From a virus: DNA of 21,741 nt. A program made the position numbers and the translations under genes. Positions 16,396 to 21,741 of the stretch are shown here, piece by piece. The notes beneath the pieces were generated by a model that did no database searches, was not told the origin of the DNA, and saw only the letters and a program-made list of their open reading frames with translations. Positions within the stretch are counted from its first letter, which is position 1, and each line of letters begins with the position of its first letter. The stretch is taken from IMG/VR virus record IMGVR_UViG_3300005664_000118, positions 1 to 21,741 of that record; one strand, written 5' to 3'.

Positions 16396-16568
16396 AATGG
16401 GTTCCTCTTTTTTTCCTTGCGGGCTGTTCTTATCTAAAGCCAGCATGCCAGATAGTAGATATTGCCAATGATGTCTGTATTGTTGTAAATACAAAGAATG
16501 GGTCCTACAGAGTGCCATCCTCTGTTCTTGTTGATGCTTCGGTTGCTAATGGTGTTAGGGTTCGATGA
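16392..16568 (+). CDS. Small lipoprotein (58 aa), spanin or exclusion candidate
   Basis: This short gene sits exactly between two ATGA overlaps (16392-16395 and 16565-16568). It encodes a very short signal sequence, MKWVPLFFLAGC, with lipobox L-A-G-C and the lipidated Cys at residue 12. The mature part is 47 residues and contains two further Cys (19, 29) that could form a disulfide, plus a strand-like region VCIVVNTKNGSYRV. It should be anchored in a membrane facing the periplasm, which supports a Gram-negative host. It might be an outer-membrane spanin subunit or a superinfection-exclusion lipoprotein. No classic Pro-rich spanin linker is seen, so function is open. Confidence 0.62.
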   Translation: MKWVPLFFLAGCSYLKPACQIVDIANDVCIVVNTKNGSYRVPSSVLVDASVANGVRVR

Positions 16569-17437
16569 GGGGGACAGGGTATCTGCAGGACCCGCTTGTT
16601 AGCGTATGGAAGAGTGGGGTGCTAGGTTCGGCTGCAGCTCTTTTGGATAGCACGCTACCATCTGCCAGCATTCGCGATTCTTTCGATGAGCCTCTTGACC
16701 AGGGCAAGACGCAAAGCTGTGTGGCGCATGCGCTATGTGCTGCCATAAAAGCCAGGTCAATTCTCCAAGGGATGCCACAGCATGTCGATTTGTCCAGGCT
16801 TTGGGTTTATAATAGAGCGAGACGGTTTCCCTTGGCTCTTCTGGGTGGAGACAGGCTTATATCCGTAGAAGATGAGGGGTGTTATCCAAGAGCGGCCATG
16901 GGCAGCCTCACGGTATCAGGTATATGTGAAGAGAATGTATGGCCATGGGACGAAGCGCAGATTAACGATAATCCATCCATCGCCGCCTTCAATAGGTCCT
17001 ATGACCAAAGAGGCACCGTTCAGCATTACAGGGTTAGCGACAGAGGAGGAGAAGATAGGGAAATGCAAGTAAGGTCAGCCCTGTCTAGCGATTTGCCAGT
17101 TATCTTTGGAACGTCTGTTGATGATGATTTTTTCGAAATAGATTCATCTGAGCCGTGGGAATTCTCTGGGTATCAAGTGGGTAGGCATATGATGGCCATA
17201 GTGGGATACGATAAGTGGGGTGTTGATGTTATCAACAGTTGGGGGACATCCTGGGGAGACGAGGGATTTTGCAAAATCAAATGGAGAAGCTTTCTAAGTC
17301 CAGCCATAACCACAGATGTTTATGTCATTGAATCTTGTCCCATATTTCCAAGCTATGAAAATCATTTATCTTTCTATCATGCTATCTGCTTGCTCAGCCA
17401 GGGCCCCCACTGCTTCTTATTGCGCGCAAGCGTGTGA
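16565..17437 (+). CDS. Papain-family (C1A) cysteine peptidase
   Basis: A 290-aa protein with the complete papain catalytic set. DQGKTQSC (45-52) supplies the oxyanion Gln46 and nucleophile Cys52 with the six-residue spacing found in papain (Q19/C25). GRHMMAIVGYD (206-216) carries His208, and VINSWGTSWGDEG (222-234) carries Asn224 and the flanking Trp of the C1A signature. There is no signal peptide or propeptide, so it would act in the cytoplasm, in the virion, or after release. The start overlaps the lipoprotein stop as ATGA. The C-terminal ~28 residues overlap the next gene and are probably unimportant. Possible roles are processing of virion proteins, host-protein cleavage or a lysis accessory. 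The family call is firm; the role is inferred only from neighbours. Confidence 0.85.
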   Translation: MRGTGYLQDPLVSVWKSGVLGSAAALLDSTLPSASIRDSFDEPLDQGKTQSCVAHALCAAIKARSILQGMPQHVDLSRLWVYNRARRFPLALLGGDRLISVEDEGCYPRAAMGSLTVSGICEENVWPWDEAQINDNPSIAAFNRSYDQRGTVQHYRVSDRGGEDREMQVRSALSSDLPVIFGTSVDDDFFEIDSSEPWEFSGYQVGRHMMAIVGYDKWGVDVINSWGTSWGDEGFCKIKWRSFLSPAITTDVYVIESCPIFPSYENHLSFYHAICLLSQGPHCFLLRASV

Positions 17438-17585: not shown

Positions 17586-17710
17586 ATGATGTTTGCCTAG
17601 CTGATTCTGATGAGCTCTGGATGCTCAACTATCTTTACAAAACAGGGGGAAAGCGATGCGTGGAGATTGTTCTGAATCGATACCTGACATTCTGTCAGGA
17701 AGACTGGTAG
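17537..17710 (+). CDS. Small acidic protein (57 aa), unknown
   Basis: Read from the ATG at 17537 because an AGGGGGG site lies at 17521-17527, nine bases upstream; an alternative ATG at 17576 overlaps the lipoprotein stop but has its purine run too close. The protein is acidic at the N-terminus (MRNDSEDM), then a helix 'ELWMLNYLYKTGGKRCVEIVLNRYL'. It overlaps the lipoprotein gene by 49 nt and the hydrolase gene by 55 nt. I recall short acidic helical proteins of this kind beside hydrolase genes in other phages, but no function is known. It could be a non-functional overlap product, which is why confidence is limited. Confidence 0.5.
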   Translation: MRNDSEDMYRCGEMSLDDVCLADSDELWMLNYLYKTGGKRCVEIVLNRYLTFCQEDW

Positions 17711-18288
17711 ATGCAGCTGTGTCCAAAATGGGAATGAACTCATCTCCTAAACACATGGGAGATTATTCTCGGTTTCTCTTCCCTCACCCAGACGATGATC
17801 CATTCCGCATCGTCATGGCCAAGCAAATGTCTAGCTGTGCTCTGTTTGCACTGTCGGTTATGCGAGAGGCTGGCATTGTGCATGACATGCTTGAGGAGCC
17901 CTATCATAAAAATATGGGCAAAGCGGTCTACATGGTATGCAAAATACTGACAGACCTCGGCTGCTGGCTGGGAGATAAAAGCTCAGACCAAATATGCGCA
18001 GGTGACATCGTTGTTGTGGGAGACAACACAAATGCTACCTACGGTGGCGTTGAGCATGTGTTCATTGTGGCATCCATTGATAGCGAAGGCATTATGGAAA
18101 CCATCGACGGAGGACAACGCAATGGTTCTGACTGGTGTATAGACGCCCGCAAGAGAAAAGTGGATGGAGCCTGGGTGCGCACATGCGACCATGAATACTC
18201 CATCGACAAACCTGGTAAGGGGAGAAGGATACGAGGCTTTGGATGCGTCAAGAAGATAACACATGGATTGCCTACATCATCGTTGTAG
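17656..18288 (+). CDS. CHAP / NlpC-P60-like cysteine hydrolase, endolysin candidate
   Basis: A 210-aa protein with an AGGGGGAAAG site before the ATG. A Cys61 at the start of a helix (SSCALFALSVMREAG, 59-73) and His134 at the start of a strand (GVEHVFIVAS, 131-140), followed by an Asp at 151 in TIDGGQ, form the Cys-His-polar layout of the CHAP and NlpC/P60 papain-like fold, which cleaves peptidoglycan amide bonds. Between them is the 'AGDIVVVGDN' strand usual in this fold. No signal peptide or separate wall-binding domain is seen. Located after holin and lipoprotein candidates, it is the best endolysin candidate in the window; a structural lysin or a toxin-like hydrolase is also possible. Confidence 0.7.
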   Translation: MRGDCSESIPDILSGRLVDAAVSKMGMNSSPKHMGDYSRFLFPHPDDDPFRIVMAKQMSSCALFALSVMREAGIVHDMLEEPYHKNMGKAVYMVCKILTDLGCWLGDKSSDQICAGDIVVVGDNTNATYGGVEHVFIVASIDSEGIMETIDGGQRNGSDWCIDARKRKVDGAWVRTCDHEYSIDKPGKGRRIRGFGCVKKITHGLPTSSL

Positions 18289-18329
18289 TAGGCATTATCC
18301 TCGCTTGGATAAACTCAGAATGGGATTGA
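18243..18329 (+). CDS. 28-aa single-span membrane peptide
   Basis: A short reading frame starting at ATG 18243 with a GAGG site at 18233-18236, six bases upstream. It encodes a polar N-terminus (MRQEDNTW), one hydrophobic span of 12-14 residues (IAYIIVVVGIILAW) and a short acidic tail. It overlaps the hydrolase gene by 46 nt and ends 15 nt inside the convergent SSB gene. A well-placed ribosome-binding site plus a perfect hydrophobic segment makes it more than a chance frame. It resembles small hydrophobic lysis or toxin peptides and pinholin-like components, but no homologue is claimed. Its length makes it easy to miss. Confidence 0.45.
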   Translation: MRQEDNTWIAYIIVVVGIILAWINSEWD

Positions 18330-18737
18330 GTCCGCTGCTTTTTTAGGCTTCGTTGCGACAATAAGCGCTTTGAACTTAGCTGCAAAGTCTGGGTTTTGCT
18401 GAGACTGTGCTGACTTAGGCTCATTCACCCATGCGACACGGGACTTGGTGACGCCATTGTATGTGTCATCCTGAACGGTAATGAGCACAACACAAGACCC
18501 AAATCCTCTCATGGTTACGATGTTATCGTCATCCCACCCACAGTACCTCAAAGACTCAATAGTCCTCTCAGCCGTTTTATCAGATGTGAAATATCCAGAC
18601 CACTGGAGTTCAGTGCCAGCATACTCTCCATCAAGGATTTCGAATACGACGTGCACAACTTCCGAGCCATTCTTTGTGTGAGCCAATTGGAAGCGGAGTG
18701 GTTTTGCTTGGTATTTACCTTCAGGTATAAGTGTCAT
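18315..18737 (-). CDS. OB-fold SSB-like protein
   Basis: A 140-aa protein that would bind single-stranded DNA during phage replication or recombination. A strand-rich N-terminal region contains ELQWSGYFTSDKTAERTIESLRYCGW (about 43-68), a conserved-looking block I associate with DUF669/SSB-type phage proteins. The C-terminus ends ADSIPF, which matches the acidic Asp-x-Ile-Pro-Phe tip that bacterial SSBs use to recruit partner proteins. A strong GAGGT site lies nine bases before the ATG, and the start overlaps the ATPase stop as ATGA. It is the last gene of the leftward operon. Function by family is reasonably sure; direct DNA binding is inferred. Confidence 0.75.
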   Translation of the reverse strand: MTLIPEGKYQAKPLRFQLAHTKNGSEVVHVVFEILDGEYAGTELQWSGYFTSDKTAERTIESLRYCGWDDDNIVTMRGFGSCVVLITVQDDTYNGVTKSRVAWVNEPKSAQSQQNPDFAAKFKALIVATKPKKAADSIPF

Positions 18738-19618
18738 TTTGATGTTACCTCGTTGATTTTGTTAATGATTCTTGTTAGCTCAGCTACGTCGTGCCCCGCC
18801 ATGATTGCTGCCTTGCGGGCATTTGCGCGCTTCTCTGGAGGGAGTTTATGAATAAGACCTTGTATCTCTGCGAAAAGGACAGAAGCTTGTTCTGGATTGA
18901 AAAGATTGATTTTGTTTTCTAGCTCAGTCCAATCAAGCGGAATCTGTTCTGGGAGCTTGTAACGGTTCTTGGCATCCCACGATGCCCCGTGCTGTGTTTT
19001 TGCGATACGGTCTCCGTTGGAAACGGCTTTACGCTGGTCTTTTTTAGCGAAGGTTTCGAAGTTAGCAAAGAGGACAATATCGCACCATTCTTTGATGAGG
19101 CCAGCAGCCTTATCGTGTAGCTTTAGAACGTACCGGTCATAGTCTTCTGTGGATGGGTCATGAAACGTTTTTATCGTTGCATGCGCAATAAGTATAACAT
19201 TTACGCCTTTATCTTTTATCTTATCAAGCTTGGCAATCAGCCTACGCCACTCATCAAGAGCTACTACATATCCTTTGCCATAACCAAACTCCTCTATGCT
19301 CTTTTTGGAGCCTATACGGCAAACAAAATCCCAACACAGTGGCTCAAGCCAATCCAGGCTGTCGATGACAACGGTTTCGTATGTGTGATCTTCTTTAGCG
19401 AGAACATCAAGAGCTTCTTGGATATCTTCCCATGATTCAGGTTTAGGAAATCTAGCCACACTCACATGCATGGTACCAGTCTCTGGACCAATGAATACAG
19501 GATTGGGCGCGCAAGCAGCGAATGTGGTCTTGCCTACACCTTCCACCCCATATACCAAGATTCTGACAGCGGAACGTGTGCTTACAGAAGAAATGCTGTT
19601 GAGTGTCATTTTGCCCAT
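18734..19618 (-). CDS. Sak4 / AAA_24-like RecA-fold ATPase
   Basis: A 294-aa nucleotide-binding protein. Residues 24-32 are the P-loop GVEGVGKTT, and VVIDSLDW (83-90) is a Walker B with Asp86. A downstream strand (GVNVILIAHATIKTF, about 138-152) fits the sensor strand of RecA-like phage ATPases (AAA_24 family, Sak4-type single-strand annealing/recombination proteins). Beside an SSB-like protein and a PD-(D/E)XK nuclease, it is likely part of a phage recombination or replication-repair unit. Start choice: M1 at 19618 gives a 13-nt overlap with the nuclease gene; M4 at 19609 would give the ATGA overlap seen at the other junctions of the operon, so it may be the true start. Confidence 0.8.
   Translation of the reverse strand: MGKMTLNSISSVSTRSAVRILVYGVEGVGKTTFAACAPNPVFIGPETGTMHVSVARFPKPESWEDIQEALDVLAKEDHTYETVVIDSLDWLEPLCWDFVCRIGSKKSIEEFGYGKGYVVALDEWRRLIAKLDKIKDKGVNVILIAHATIKTFHDPSTEDYDRYVLKLHDKAAGLIKEWCDIVLFANFETFAKKDQRKAVSNGDRIAKTQHGASWDAKNRYKLPEQIPLDWTELENKINLFNPEQASVLFAEIQGLIHKLPPEKRANARKAAIMAGHDVAELTRIINKINEVTSK
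18813..18830. repeat. Paired copies of the TTGCG(G/C)GC octamer
   Basis: TTGCGGGC (18813-18820) and TTGCGCGC (18823-18830) lie ten bases apart inside the ATPase gene. They are the closest pair in a window-wide set of 18 sites. Other sites begin at 67, 1388, 2549, 5047, 6040, 7074, 9241, 10053, 10547, 11823, 14270, 14455, 16417, 17420, 18145 and 19507. The sites at 2549 and 17420 are the full palindrome TTGCGCGCAA. Confidence 0.55.
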
Positions 19619-20403
19619 GATATTTTTCTCTCTCTTTCTTTATACGAATCAATCGATTTTGTCTTATTGCATACATCAAAAAAACCGCAGCTGGAGTTGA
19701 ACCCACGTCGGCATGATTTTGTATTCTTTGGATGCACACCATATGACATCATCTCTGCTATGTCCTGCATGTCGCTCACAGCGGAGTCTATATCAAAGCT
19801 TTCAATGGCCATGCATCGCATAGCCATGTGTTTCGTAGGCGAAGCTACCATTTGCTCTTTCGTCCCCCTTTTAATAGCATCAACCCACACGCCCTGGACT
19901 TTCTCTCCACTTTCTCTAAGAGCGAAGAGATAGAGACAAAGCTGCTGACTGACTCTCATCTGGTCCCAGTAGTTGGAGTGCCAAGAGATGTCACTGGAAG
20001 TTGTTTTGTGCTCCATAAGATAGAGACCAGACTCCGTATCGACAACGGCGTCCATGACTCCATAAAAGCAAACTCCATTGCCGAAATCGTGATGGATTTC
20101 TTTTTCCACATACAGTGTCTTCCATTGCTGTTGCAGGTCTTTGTATCGTTCCATATAAACATCAAGCATATCAATAGCATAGGACACATGCTCCATGTCA
20201 TACCCAGGAGATTCTGCGACCATGGATTTAGCATTAATCGCATCTCCATTCTTCCAAAAGCTAGCTGCTCCTATGTGGAAAAGATTCCCGATGTCAGTAG
20301 CCTCTGATTTATCTTCGGAGTCTTTCATGAGAGAATATCTGTAGTAGTGCTCTCGAGGACACCTTTGAAAGCATGCCATCTCTGACTGTGTAATCAGTTT
20401 CAT
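19606..20403 (-). CDS. PD-(D/E)XK nuclease with Fe-S-type cysteines (Cas4/RecB-like)
   Basis: A 265-aa protein with nuclease motifs in order: Cys11 and Cys15 near the N-terminus (ACFQRCP), GNLFH with His43, GVMDAVV with Asp118, and LMEHK with Glu131 and Lys133, the E-x-K catalytic pair. A C-terminal cluster Cys231, Cys239, Cys245 (C-x7-C-x5-C) together with Cys15 is the usual set that holds a 4Fe-4S cluster in AddB/Cas4-like enzymes. It is probably an exonuclease or strand-processing enzyme for phage recombination, working with the adjoining ATPase and SSB-like protein. Overlaps at both ends (ATGA upstream) support an operon. All key residues are present, so it should be active. Confidence 0.82.
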   Translation of the reverse strand: MKLITQSEMACFQRCPREHYYRYSLMKDSEDKSEATDIGNLFHIGAASFWKNGDAINAKSMVAESPGYDMEHVSYAIDMLDVYMERYKDLQQQWKTLYVEKEIHHDFGNGVCFYGVMDAVVDTESGLYLMEHKTTSSDISWHSNYWDQMRVSQQLCLYLFALRESGEKVQGVWVDAIKRGTKEQMVASPTKHMAMRCMAIESFDIDSAVSDMQDIAEMMSYGVHPKNTKSCRRGFNSSCGFFDVCNKTKSIDSYKERERKISWAK

Positions 20404-20669
20404 CGACCGAAAGCTTTCTTTTGATAATACATGATATCGGCAAACGACCTAGCCGTCCCATTTCTATCCTTGTGAGACAATGCCGTTGCTGTGCGTTGAA
20501 GAAGCTCCGATGGTTTATGCTCAGAAGCAAAGAAATTACCAGGACTATGGTTATGATGATAAGCATCCGCAATCTCCATAATTGAATTGAGCATTTGCTC
20601 AGGTGTTCTATTTCTAAATAGAAGCCATACTACATCAAATACAACACGCCCCAGTGATTCCTCATCCAT
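20400..20669 (-). CDS. First gene of leftward operon, unknown 89-aa protein, predicted leaderless
   Basis: An 89-aa protein with a helix-predicted N-terminal part (GRVVFDVVWLLFRNRTPEQML, split here by a polar turn) and a basic C-terminus (SFADIMYYQKKAFGR). No motif identifies it. Its ATG is seven bases beyond the last base of a near-consensus -10 box on the same strand, so the transcript would begin at or beside the ATG. A GGAG lies only two bases before the ATG, too close for a normal Shine-Dalgarno. It overlaps the nuclease gene by ATGA. Being first in the operon and directly under the switch, it could be an early regulator or a partner of the nuclease; that is inference. Confidence 0.65.
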   Translation of the reverse strand: MDEESLGRVVFDVVWLLFRNRTPEQMLNSIMEIADAYHHNHSPGNFFASEHKPSELLQRTATALSHKDRNGTARSFADIMYYQKKAFGR

Positions 20670-20675
20670 AGCTCC

Positions 20676-20703
20676 ACTATACGCATACTATTATTTTAGT
20701 CAA
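20676..20703 (-). promoter_or_regulatory. Leftward promoter of the recombination operon
   Basis: On the minus strand a -35 box TTGACT (complement of 20698-20703) and a -10 box TATAGT (complement of 20676-20681) are separated by 16 nt. Both match the sigma-70 consensus at five of six bases. The expected start, six to seven bases beyond the -10, falls at or next to the ATG of the 89-aa gene at 20669, so the mRNA would be leaderless or nearly so. Its -35 lies eight bases from the -35 of the opposite promoter. Confidence 0.68.
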
Positions 20704-20725
20704 TAGCAATGTTGACTATTTTAGT
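20692..20725. promoter_or_regulatory. Operator candidate: inverted repeat TAGTCAA/TTGACTA and direct repeat TATTTTAGT
   Basis: Perfect 7-bp arms TAGTCAA (20697-20703) and TTGACTA (20712-20718) flank an 8-bp spacer. In addition the 9-mer TATTTTAGT occurs as a direct repeat at 20692-20700 and 20717-20725, 25 bp apart. The inverted-repeat arms contain both -35 boxes, so a dimeric protein bound here would block both promoters. The adjacent XRE-type HTH gene is the obvious ligand; that link is inferred. Confidence 0.62.
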
Positions 20726-20739
20726 TTTTGTCGTATGAT
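20712..20739 (+). promoter_or_regulatory. Rightward promoter of the HTH gene
   Basis: A -35 box TTGACT (20712-20717) and -10 box TATGAT (20734-20739) with a 16-nt spacer, each matching the sigma-70 consensus at five of six bases. The expected start is at about 20746-20747, where the HTH gene's ATG begins, so the transcript would be leaderless, as is known for lambda cI from PRM. No Shine-Dalgarno precedes the ATG, consistent with this. Confidence 0.68.
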
Positions 20740-20746
20740 GTGACTT

Positions 20747-21043
20747 ATGACGAGTACGATTGGAGATAGATTGAGAGAAGCAAGATTGAAACGTGGGATT
20801 GGCACACAGCAATTGTCGCTGAAGATAGGCAAGTCACGTGGGCTGGTTACTCTTATTGAGAATGGATATACGAAGGACCCTGGATGCCGAACCATGTCGC
20901 TTCTGGCTCAAGAGCTGGGTGTAACTCTGGAATGGCTGGTGAACGGGTTATGGGGTGGGAGTTGCAAGTTGAGAAATACCTGGAGGGGCCTCTCAACGAC
21001 ATTGTGTTGCATTTTCAGCACAAAAAATCGAGCCATTCGGTAG
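20747..21043 (+). CDS. XRE-type HTH transcriptional regulator, repressor-like
   Basis: A 98-aa protein whose first 67 residues form a Cro/cI-type HTH domain: GDRLREARLKRG (6-17), then TQQLSLKIGKSRGLVTLIENG (20-40) as the helix-turn-helix, and MSLLAQELGVTLEWLVNG (50-67) as the closing helices. Residues after about 68 look unlike a normal domain (Cys/Trp/Arg-rich) and lie over the start of the next gene in the -1 frame. It has no ribosome-binding site and probably uses a leaderless start at the upstream promoter. It likely binds the adjoining inverted repeat and controls both divergent promoters. The extended fusion product is discussed under the slippery site. Confidence 0.78.
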   Translation: MTSTIGDRLREARLKRGIGTQQLSLKIGKSRGLVTLIENGYTKDPGCRTMSLLAQELGVTLEWLVNGLWGGSCKLRNTWRGLSTTLCCIFSTKNRAIR

Positions 21044-21741
21044 ACACCAAATGCCCTATATGTATTAGACGTATGTTCTTTAATATGTGGCTAGATTTGG
21101 TTAATCCAGTCGACCTTGATGGGAAGAAGCTCTTTACTAGAAGGTCTTGGATTTTGGCGGGCGAAGCGGCCCATGTTTTCATGCCATCACGTGGATACGC
21201 CGAAATGTATGATATTGATAAAGAAAATGTTTTCAATATTAAAAACAATGTTTTGTATGTTTTTGGCAAAAAGGTGAAATCCGTTTCGCTGGGAAGAAGT
21301 CCTATGCCAGTGATGTACGAAGGAGAGAAGGAGCCATCTGAGACGGATGTGCATCTCCAGGCAGGGTTTACCGAATGTCATTATAGACTGTATCCTGAGG
21401 TGACTTATGAGCCTAGTGATATAGGTATCATTTTGCCATGGGTGGCTTATCAGGTTTTTGATAAAGCGCTTCAGGTTTTTCTAGGTAACAATAGCATTTG
21501 GGATCTTTATAAAAGATGGAACGGTAACGGAATCGCTATCGAAGAATCAAACCTATTTATGAGAGAAAATGTTCTTAATAAAATACAAGACATGGACTTT
21601 AACATAGATAAAGAAGAGATGTGGGCTTGGGCTGCAGCAAATATAACAGCTGAGCTATCGTGTTATCTATTCTCTAGAAATGGAGGGGAAGACATTGCTG
21701 ACATATTGCGCTTGAAACCTCTGTTTCAACACCTTGTGGAA
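20950..21741 (+). CDS. Unrecognised protein, 3'-truncated by window edge
   Basis: An open frame of 264 codons from ATG 20950 to the last base of the window with no stop; it is not closed here, so the true length is unknown. The frame is open back to 20860, and ATGs at 20884 and 20932 are other start options; none has a good ribosome-binding site. The N-terminal region has His residues followed by a single CPIC (about 21-38), which might be half of a zinc site, but no second Cys pair is seen. The rest mixes strands and amphipathic helices and is more AT-rich than the structural genes. I do not recognise a family. It follows the HTH gene in the same orientation, so it could be an effector or partner of the regulator. 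Confidence 0.65.
   Translation, partial: MGWELQVEKYLEGPLNDIVLHFQHKKSSHSVDTKCPICIRRMFFNMWLDLVNPVDLDGKKLFTRRSWILAGEAAHVFMPSRGYAEMYDIDKENVFNIKNNVLYVFGKKVKSVSLGRSPMPVMYEGEKEPSETDVHLQAGFTECHYRLYPEVTYEPSDIGIILPWVAYQVFDKALQVFLGNNSIWDLYKRWNGNGIAIEESNLFMRENVLNKIQDMDFNIDKEEMWAWAAANITAELSCYLFSRNGGEDIADILRLKPLFQHLVE
21022..21028 (+). other. Possible -1 slippery heptamer A-AAA-AAT
   Basis: Within the HTH gene's frame the codons ACA AAA AAT create the heptamer A AAA AAT, of the X-XXY-YYZ type, five codons before the HTH stop. A slip of -1 here puts the ribosome exactly in frame with the following long open frame and would join the two products. A clear downstream stem-loop was not identified. This may be only a run of A bases. 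Confidence 0.25.

Follow-up and report, generated by a model that had tools for sequence, protein, structure and literature searches.

In phage 434, the OR region separates a repressor gene from an early operon, and its two promoters point apart from -35 boxes that adjoin. The annotated -35 boxes of PR and PRM overlap by 5 bp, and the region has three annotated 14-bp operators, with OR2 and OR3 spaced by 23 bp, an opposite Cro gene, and annotated ribosome-binding sites for both cI and cro; lambda also has three operators. In the immB region of phage PY54, divergent promoters produce leaderless cI and cro mRNAs, which begin at the AUG according to RACE, and a single operator (OR3) is recognised in the 116-bp cI/cro gap (PMC4488713). 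PY54 has a recognisable Cro opposite CI, as well as a strong cI promoter at the 5' end of cro. Leaderless mRNAs also encode lambda cI and the PaaR2 regulator of CP-933P, in which the paaR2/ydaS gap is 97 bp (PMC8630535). The CP-933P region carries four 18-bp palindromes and two opposing regulators.

The sequence analysed here (the window) is a whole IMG/VR viral record of 21,741 bases, probably a fragment, in which a 77-bp gap separates a leftward early operon from a gene for a helix-turn-helix (HTH) regulator and a second ORF (ORF2) to its right. The rightward late genes encode a portal, SU10-like capsid, tail and virion proteins, a papain-type protease and a CHAP protein; the papain-family cysteine protease domain (PF00112, E 3.6e-9) is found at 16565-17437 and adjoins the CHAP-domain protein (17656-18288). 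The first ORF (1-396) presumably resembles the C-terminal part of a large terminase, although Pfam and NCBIfam models gave no support for this assignment. No integrase or partition genes were recognised among the scanned proteins of this fragmentary contig. The features discussed below are as follows.

18315-18737, minus strand: SSB-like protein (DUF669; phrog_378)
18734-19618, minus strand: Sak4-like ssDNA-annealing ATPase (PF13479; phrog_124)
19606-20403, minus strand: PD-(D/E)XK exonuclease (PF12705; phrog_1218)
20400-20669, minus strand: 89-aa orphan that heads the leftward operon, predicted leaderless, GGAG 2 nt from the ATG
20670-20746, no strand: divergent intergenic control region, 77 bp, 31% G+C
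20676-20703, minus strand: sigma70-like promoter, TTGACT-16-TATAGT, 10/12 matches, expected start about 20669-20670
20692-20700, plus strand: direct repeat copy 1, TATTTTAGT
20697-20718, no strand: perfect inverted repeat TAGTCAA-N8-TTGACTA containing both -35 boxes, candidate operator
20712-20739, plus strand: sigma70-like promoter, TTGACT-16-TATGAT, 10/12 matches, expected start about 20746-20747
20717-20725, plus strand: direct repeat copy 2, TATTTTAGT, 25 bp from copy 1
20747-21043, plus strand: HTH gene, 434 CI-like DNA-binding domain at residues 4-67, predicted leaderless, no Shine-Dalgarno (dG -0.3)
20950-21741, plus strand: ORF2, in a different frame overlapping the HTH tail, coding signal in this frame from about 20950 onwards, truncated by the contig end

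The original prediction placed two sigma-70-like promoters facing apart within these 77 bp, and every coordinate was right when checked. Rightward, TTGACT (20712-20717) is followed after 16 bp by TATGAT (20734-20739) and by the ATG at 20747; leftward, TTGACT (the complement of 20698-20703) is followed after 16 bp by TATAGT (the complement of 20676-20681) and by the ATG that reads down from 20669. The two -35 hexamers are separated by the 8 bp inside TAGTCAA-N8-TTGACTA, and both -10 boxes end 6-7 bp 5' of an ATG. Both spacers are one base below the optimal length, which counts against the explanation that we favour below. To qualify, a promoter had to have at least 10/12 matches and a -10 box 5-9 bp before an ATG (the leaderless distance). 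Such a promoter appeared on one side in 0.34% of dinucleotide shuffles of the region and on both sides in 0 of 20,000. Our comparison set consisted of 2.8 Mb of phage and bacterial loci, in which start codons were counted where the ORF reached 60 aa, and 28 of these 51,673 start codons qualified one-sidedly; among its 30,046 divergent start pairs, the window's pair (together with its own copy in the set, L001) was the only one with at least 10/12 on both sides, the nearest other pair (in locus L137) scoring 10 and 9. The coincidence of promoters and ATGs is beyond chance and, given these shuffles and the lack of any other such pair in the 2.8 Mb, we regard the two divergent and probably leaderless promoters as very likely real.

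Neither ATG could be placed further upstream, since each follows closely on an in-frame stop (TGA at 20741-20743 on the rightward side) and has no alternative start before it. The ATGs are nearly equidistant from the centre of the repeat, as the original prediction had it (38.5 and 39.5 bp as measured), and transcription beginning about 7 bases past the -10 boxes would start on or beside them, so that both lead mRNAs are probably leaderless, again as proposed. The Shine-Dalgarno signal at the HTH gene start is among the weakest of the 24 gene starts scored, and it is stronger at most other starts in the window. Neither lead gene has a usable Shine-Dalgarno, with the caveat that the leftward gene has the GGAG noted in the list; such a motif 2 nt from the ATG is too close for normal ribosome-binding use, but the 89-aa gene may nonetheless have a short-leader start via this GGAG.

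The window resembles 434 OR in having two promoters that face apart, with neighbouring -35 boxes, in the space between repressor gene and early operon, but the opposite gene is the 89-aa orphan, followed by recombination genes, rather than Cro. With PY54 immB it shares two divergent promoters, with leaderless mRNAs that are known in PY54 and predicted in the window, but its gap is shorter (77 bp compared to 116 bp) and its -35 boxes are back to back. As in CP-933P paaR2/ydaS and lambda PRM-cI, an HTH regulator would be expressed from a leaderless mRNA (predicted in the window) beside a divergent promoter; CP-933P differs in its four palindromes and two opposing regulators, and lambda in its three operators. 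Describing the arrangement as unlike that of lambda was thus an overstatement, since -35 boxes overlap in 434 and PY54 combines one operator with leaderless cI and cro (PMC4488713). Because its features are shared by 434, PY54 and CP-933P, the layout is a compact form of the arrangement known from 434, lambda and PY54, with the 89-aa gene of the window holding the Cro position.

A Cro/cI-type HTH protein had been named as the rightward lead gene, and family searches bear this out: residues 4-67 match HTH_19 (9e-10), HTH_3 (6e-8) and phage repressor families, and phmmer matches the domain to the 434 repressor at 1.3e-7. Among solved relatives, the 434 domain is the nearest (36% over 64 aa), and 434-family repressors in phages also match at 36%. 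A repressor gene with an HTH_3/434-like domain therefore stands at a divergent promoter pair, as in lambda- and 434-type regions. The full extent of the protein is uncertain because its frame ends in a non-coding-like tail. Specifically, the codon bias of the HTH frame (20747-21043) weakens as the domain ends, and near 20950 the coding signal passes to ORF2 in the other frame (20884-21741); the switch falls right after the 434-like domain and beside a GGGG run (20952-20955). Hence, the regulator may be short, with a further gene overlapping its own on the downstream side, or it may be part of a larger protein whose two frames are connected by a frameshift or split by a sequencing error. The 98-aa HTH ORF lacks a self-cleaving S24/LexA-like C-terminal domain, and ORF2, truncated at the contig end, gave no family hit at E<=0.01. 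The ORF2 product (20950-21741) includes the residues CPIC. Single-sequence AlphaFold models were too poor to use (pLDDT 50 for the HTH protein and 55 for the 89-aa protein).

In the leftward direction, the genes for the 89-aa orphan, the exonuclease, the Sak4-like ATPase and the SSB-like protein overlap by 4-13 bp and hence form one operon. Neither Pfam nor PHROG gives a hit for the 89-aa protein at E<=0.01, nor does NCBIfam at E<=1, and its best Pfam match is Arc-like and insignificant (E 0.12); no Cro-type repressor is thus recognised as the opposing lead gene. Close relatives were not found by blastn against phages, by single-protein IMG/VR scans with the exonuclease, HTH, Sak4 and portal proteins, or by tblastn with the major capsid protein, ORF2 and the 89-aa protein, and no relative close enough to show the region conserved exists in the collections searched, which also counts against our favoured explanation. 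Among 160 distant loci gathered using a Sak4 alignment, an exonuclease match stands beside Sak4 in about 15, most of which have the SSB too; distant contigs, viral as well as bacterial, thus repeatedly carry the exonuclease-Sak4-SSB cassette. In one of these loci (L142), a small HTH_31/HTH_3 gene is divergent from and adjoins the exonuclease. In another (L137), the first gene of the cassette operon (1245-1505) is HTH-bearing and its ATG lies 6 bp beyond a near-consensus promoter, TTGACA-17-TAGGAT, although the start of its divergent partner is a GTG 139 bp away and less convincing. These two arrangements suggest that a regulator heading the cassette recurs in at least some relatives. The L137 gene may be leaderless too, given the distance of its promoter from the ATG; it has no homology to the 89-aa protein.

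The repeats are harder to interpret. The proposal that the -35 boxes are the arms of a perfect inverted repeat with an 8-bp spacer is correct to the base (TAGTCAA 20697-20703, spacer 20704-20711, TTGACTA 20712-20718), and the direct repeat that had been pointed out is present at both positions. However, any two identical -35 boxes that point apart necessarily form an inverted repeat, which for back-to-back TTGACT boxes is 6 bp long, so the inverted repeat is not independent of the promoters and is weaker evidence than the promoter pair; a perfect repeat with 7-bp arms alone occurs in 6% of shuffles. We found no further copies of the dyad elsewhere in the window, and ACTA-N3-TAGT gave only partial extra matches there, fewer than expected by chance. 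The arm pattern occurs 122 times in the collected loci, but good -10 boxes and start codons on both sides accompany only the window's copy, so that the other matches, among the IMG/VR matches listed, look like chance.

Taken together, we consider it reasonably probable that the gap serves a tailed phage as an immunity-type control region and that the HTH protein acts there as a repressor of both its own gene and the recombination operon. Under this hypothesis, two host sigma70-type promoters would stand back to back, one giving a leaderless mRNA for the small 434 CI-like regulator and the other a leaderless mRNA for the early recombination operon (the 89-aa protein, the exonuclease, the Sak4-like annealing protein and SSB). 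Two polymerases would probably hinder each other or compete because the -35 boxes are only 8 bp apart. The HTH protein would most likely bind somewhere in this 77-bp gap, covering or adjoining the -35 boxes, and thereby shut off the recombination operon and limit its own synthesis. The sequence itself shows the layout, the homology of the HTH domain, the contents of the operon and the coincidence of promoters with ATGs, whereas promoter activity, mRNA starts at the ATGs, contact of the HTH protein with this DNA and the sense in which control runs are what we infer. The parallels with 434, lambda, PY54 and PaaR2, together with the cassette regulators in L142 and L137, lend this immunity reading support by analogy.

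Alternatively, the region might be a multi-operator switch of the lambda/434 kind, in which the HTH protein would occupy several imperfect ACTA/TAGT sites one after another (e.g., 20687-20700, the central dyad and 20715-20725). ACTA/TAGT words occur five times compared to 1.6 expected, a count reached in 0.3% of shuffles (tempered by the fact that some 4-mer or other reaches five copies in 14%), and the 25-bp spacing of the direct repeats resembles that of OR2 and OR3 in 434. However, the candidate sites differ in half-site spacing (3, 6 and 14 bp), and a search of the region for operators with two dyad sites of any tested length gave nothing above shuffles. In addition, the positions of Q28 and Q29, which we take to be the recognition residues of the 434 repressor, read R and G in the aligned HTH protein, so an operator is not transferable from 434 by homology. 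Overall, we regard this alternative as unlikely, albeit with an appreciable chance of being right.

A plain early divergent promoter pair, with the HTH protein acting elsewhere (e.g., in an antitoxin-like role or together with ORF2) and the repeats representing promoter consensus only, would account for the repeat being largely the -35 boxes. Generic HTH_3 domains are also found in antitoxins (the HTH protein has a weak Y4mF antitoxin match, E 1.5e-4, far below the cutoff), and the overlap of ORF2 with the HTH gene makes co-expression possible. HTH regulators beside a divergent promoter, however, usually bind there, as is established for lambda, 434 and CP-933P PaaR2, and a small HTH gene is divergent beside the exonuclease in L142 too; we thus consider this reading quite unlikely.

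The minimal bistable switch of the original prediction, in which one operator (TAGTCAA-N8-TTGACTA) blocks both promoters and mutual exclusion yields two stable states, is improbable in our view. The repeat does cover both -35 boxes exactly, an HTH protein is encoded beside it, and PY54 provides a precedent for a one-operator switch with leaderless divergent genes. Nevertheless, the repeat is near-automatic from the two TTGACT boxes; as a dyad it spans 22 bp, with 15 bp between half-site centres, and so exceeds the annotated 14-bp 434 operator in width; and, with no set of two dyad sites above shuffles, we found no readable operator. Further, a single site shutting both promoters gives negative autoregulation and not by itself bistability, which would need an opposing regulator or strong non-linearity, and no second repressor was found, the 89-aa product having no significant family match. 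That a one-regulator, one-operator lysis-lysogeny switch operates here, with polymerase exclusion at the back-to-back -35 boxes and two leaderless mRNAs replacing the opposing Cro, appears very improbable.

The immunity-type control region that we favour opens no new class: -35 boxes that overlap were already known from 434, and PY54 already offered divergent switch genes that are leaderless and share one operator. As a natural example it is very compact, with two phage promoters pointing apart and a probably leaderless gene in the lead on each side, a layout that would suit tests of polymerase exclusion and leaderless translation, and it represents a case of a 434-like regulator tied directly to an exonuclease/Sak4/SSB operon.
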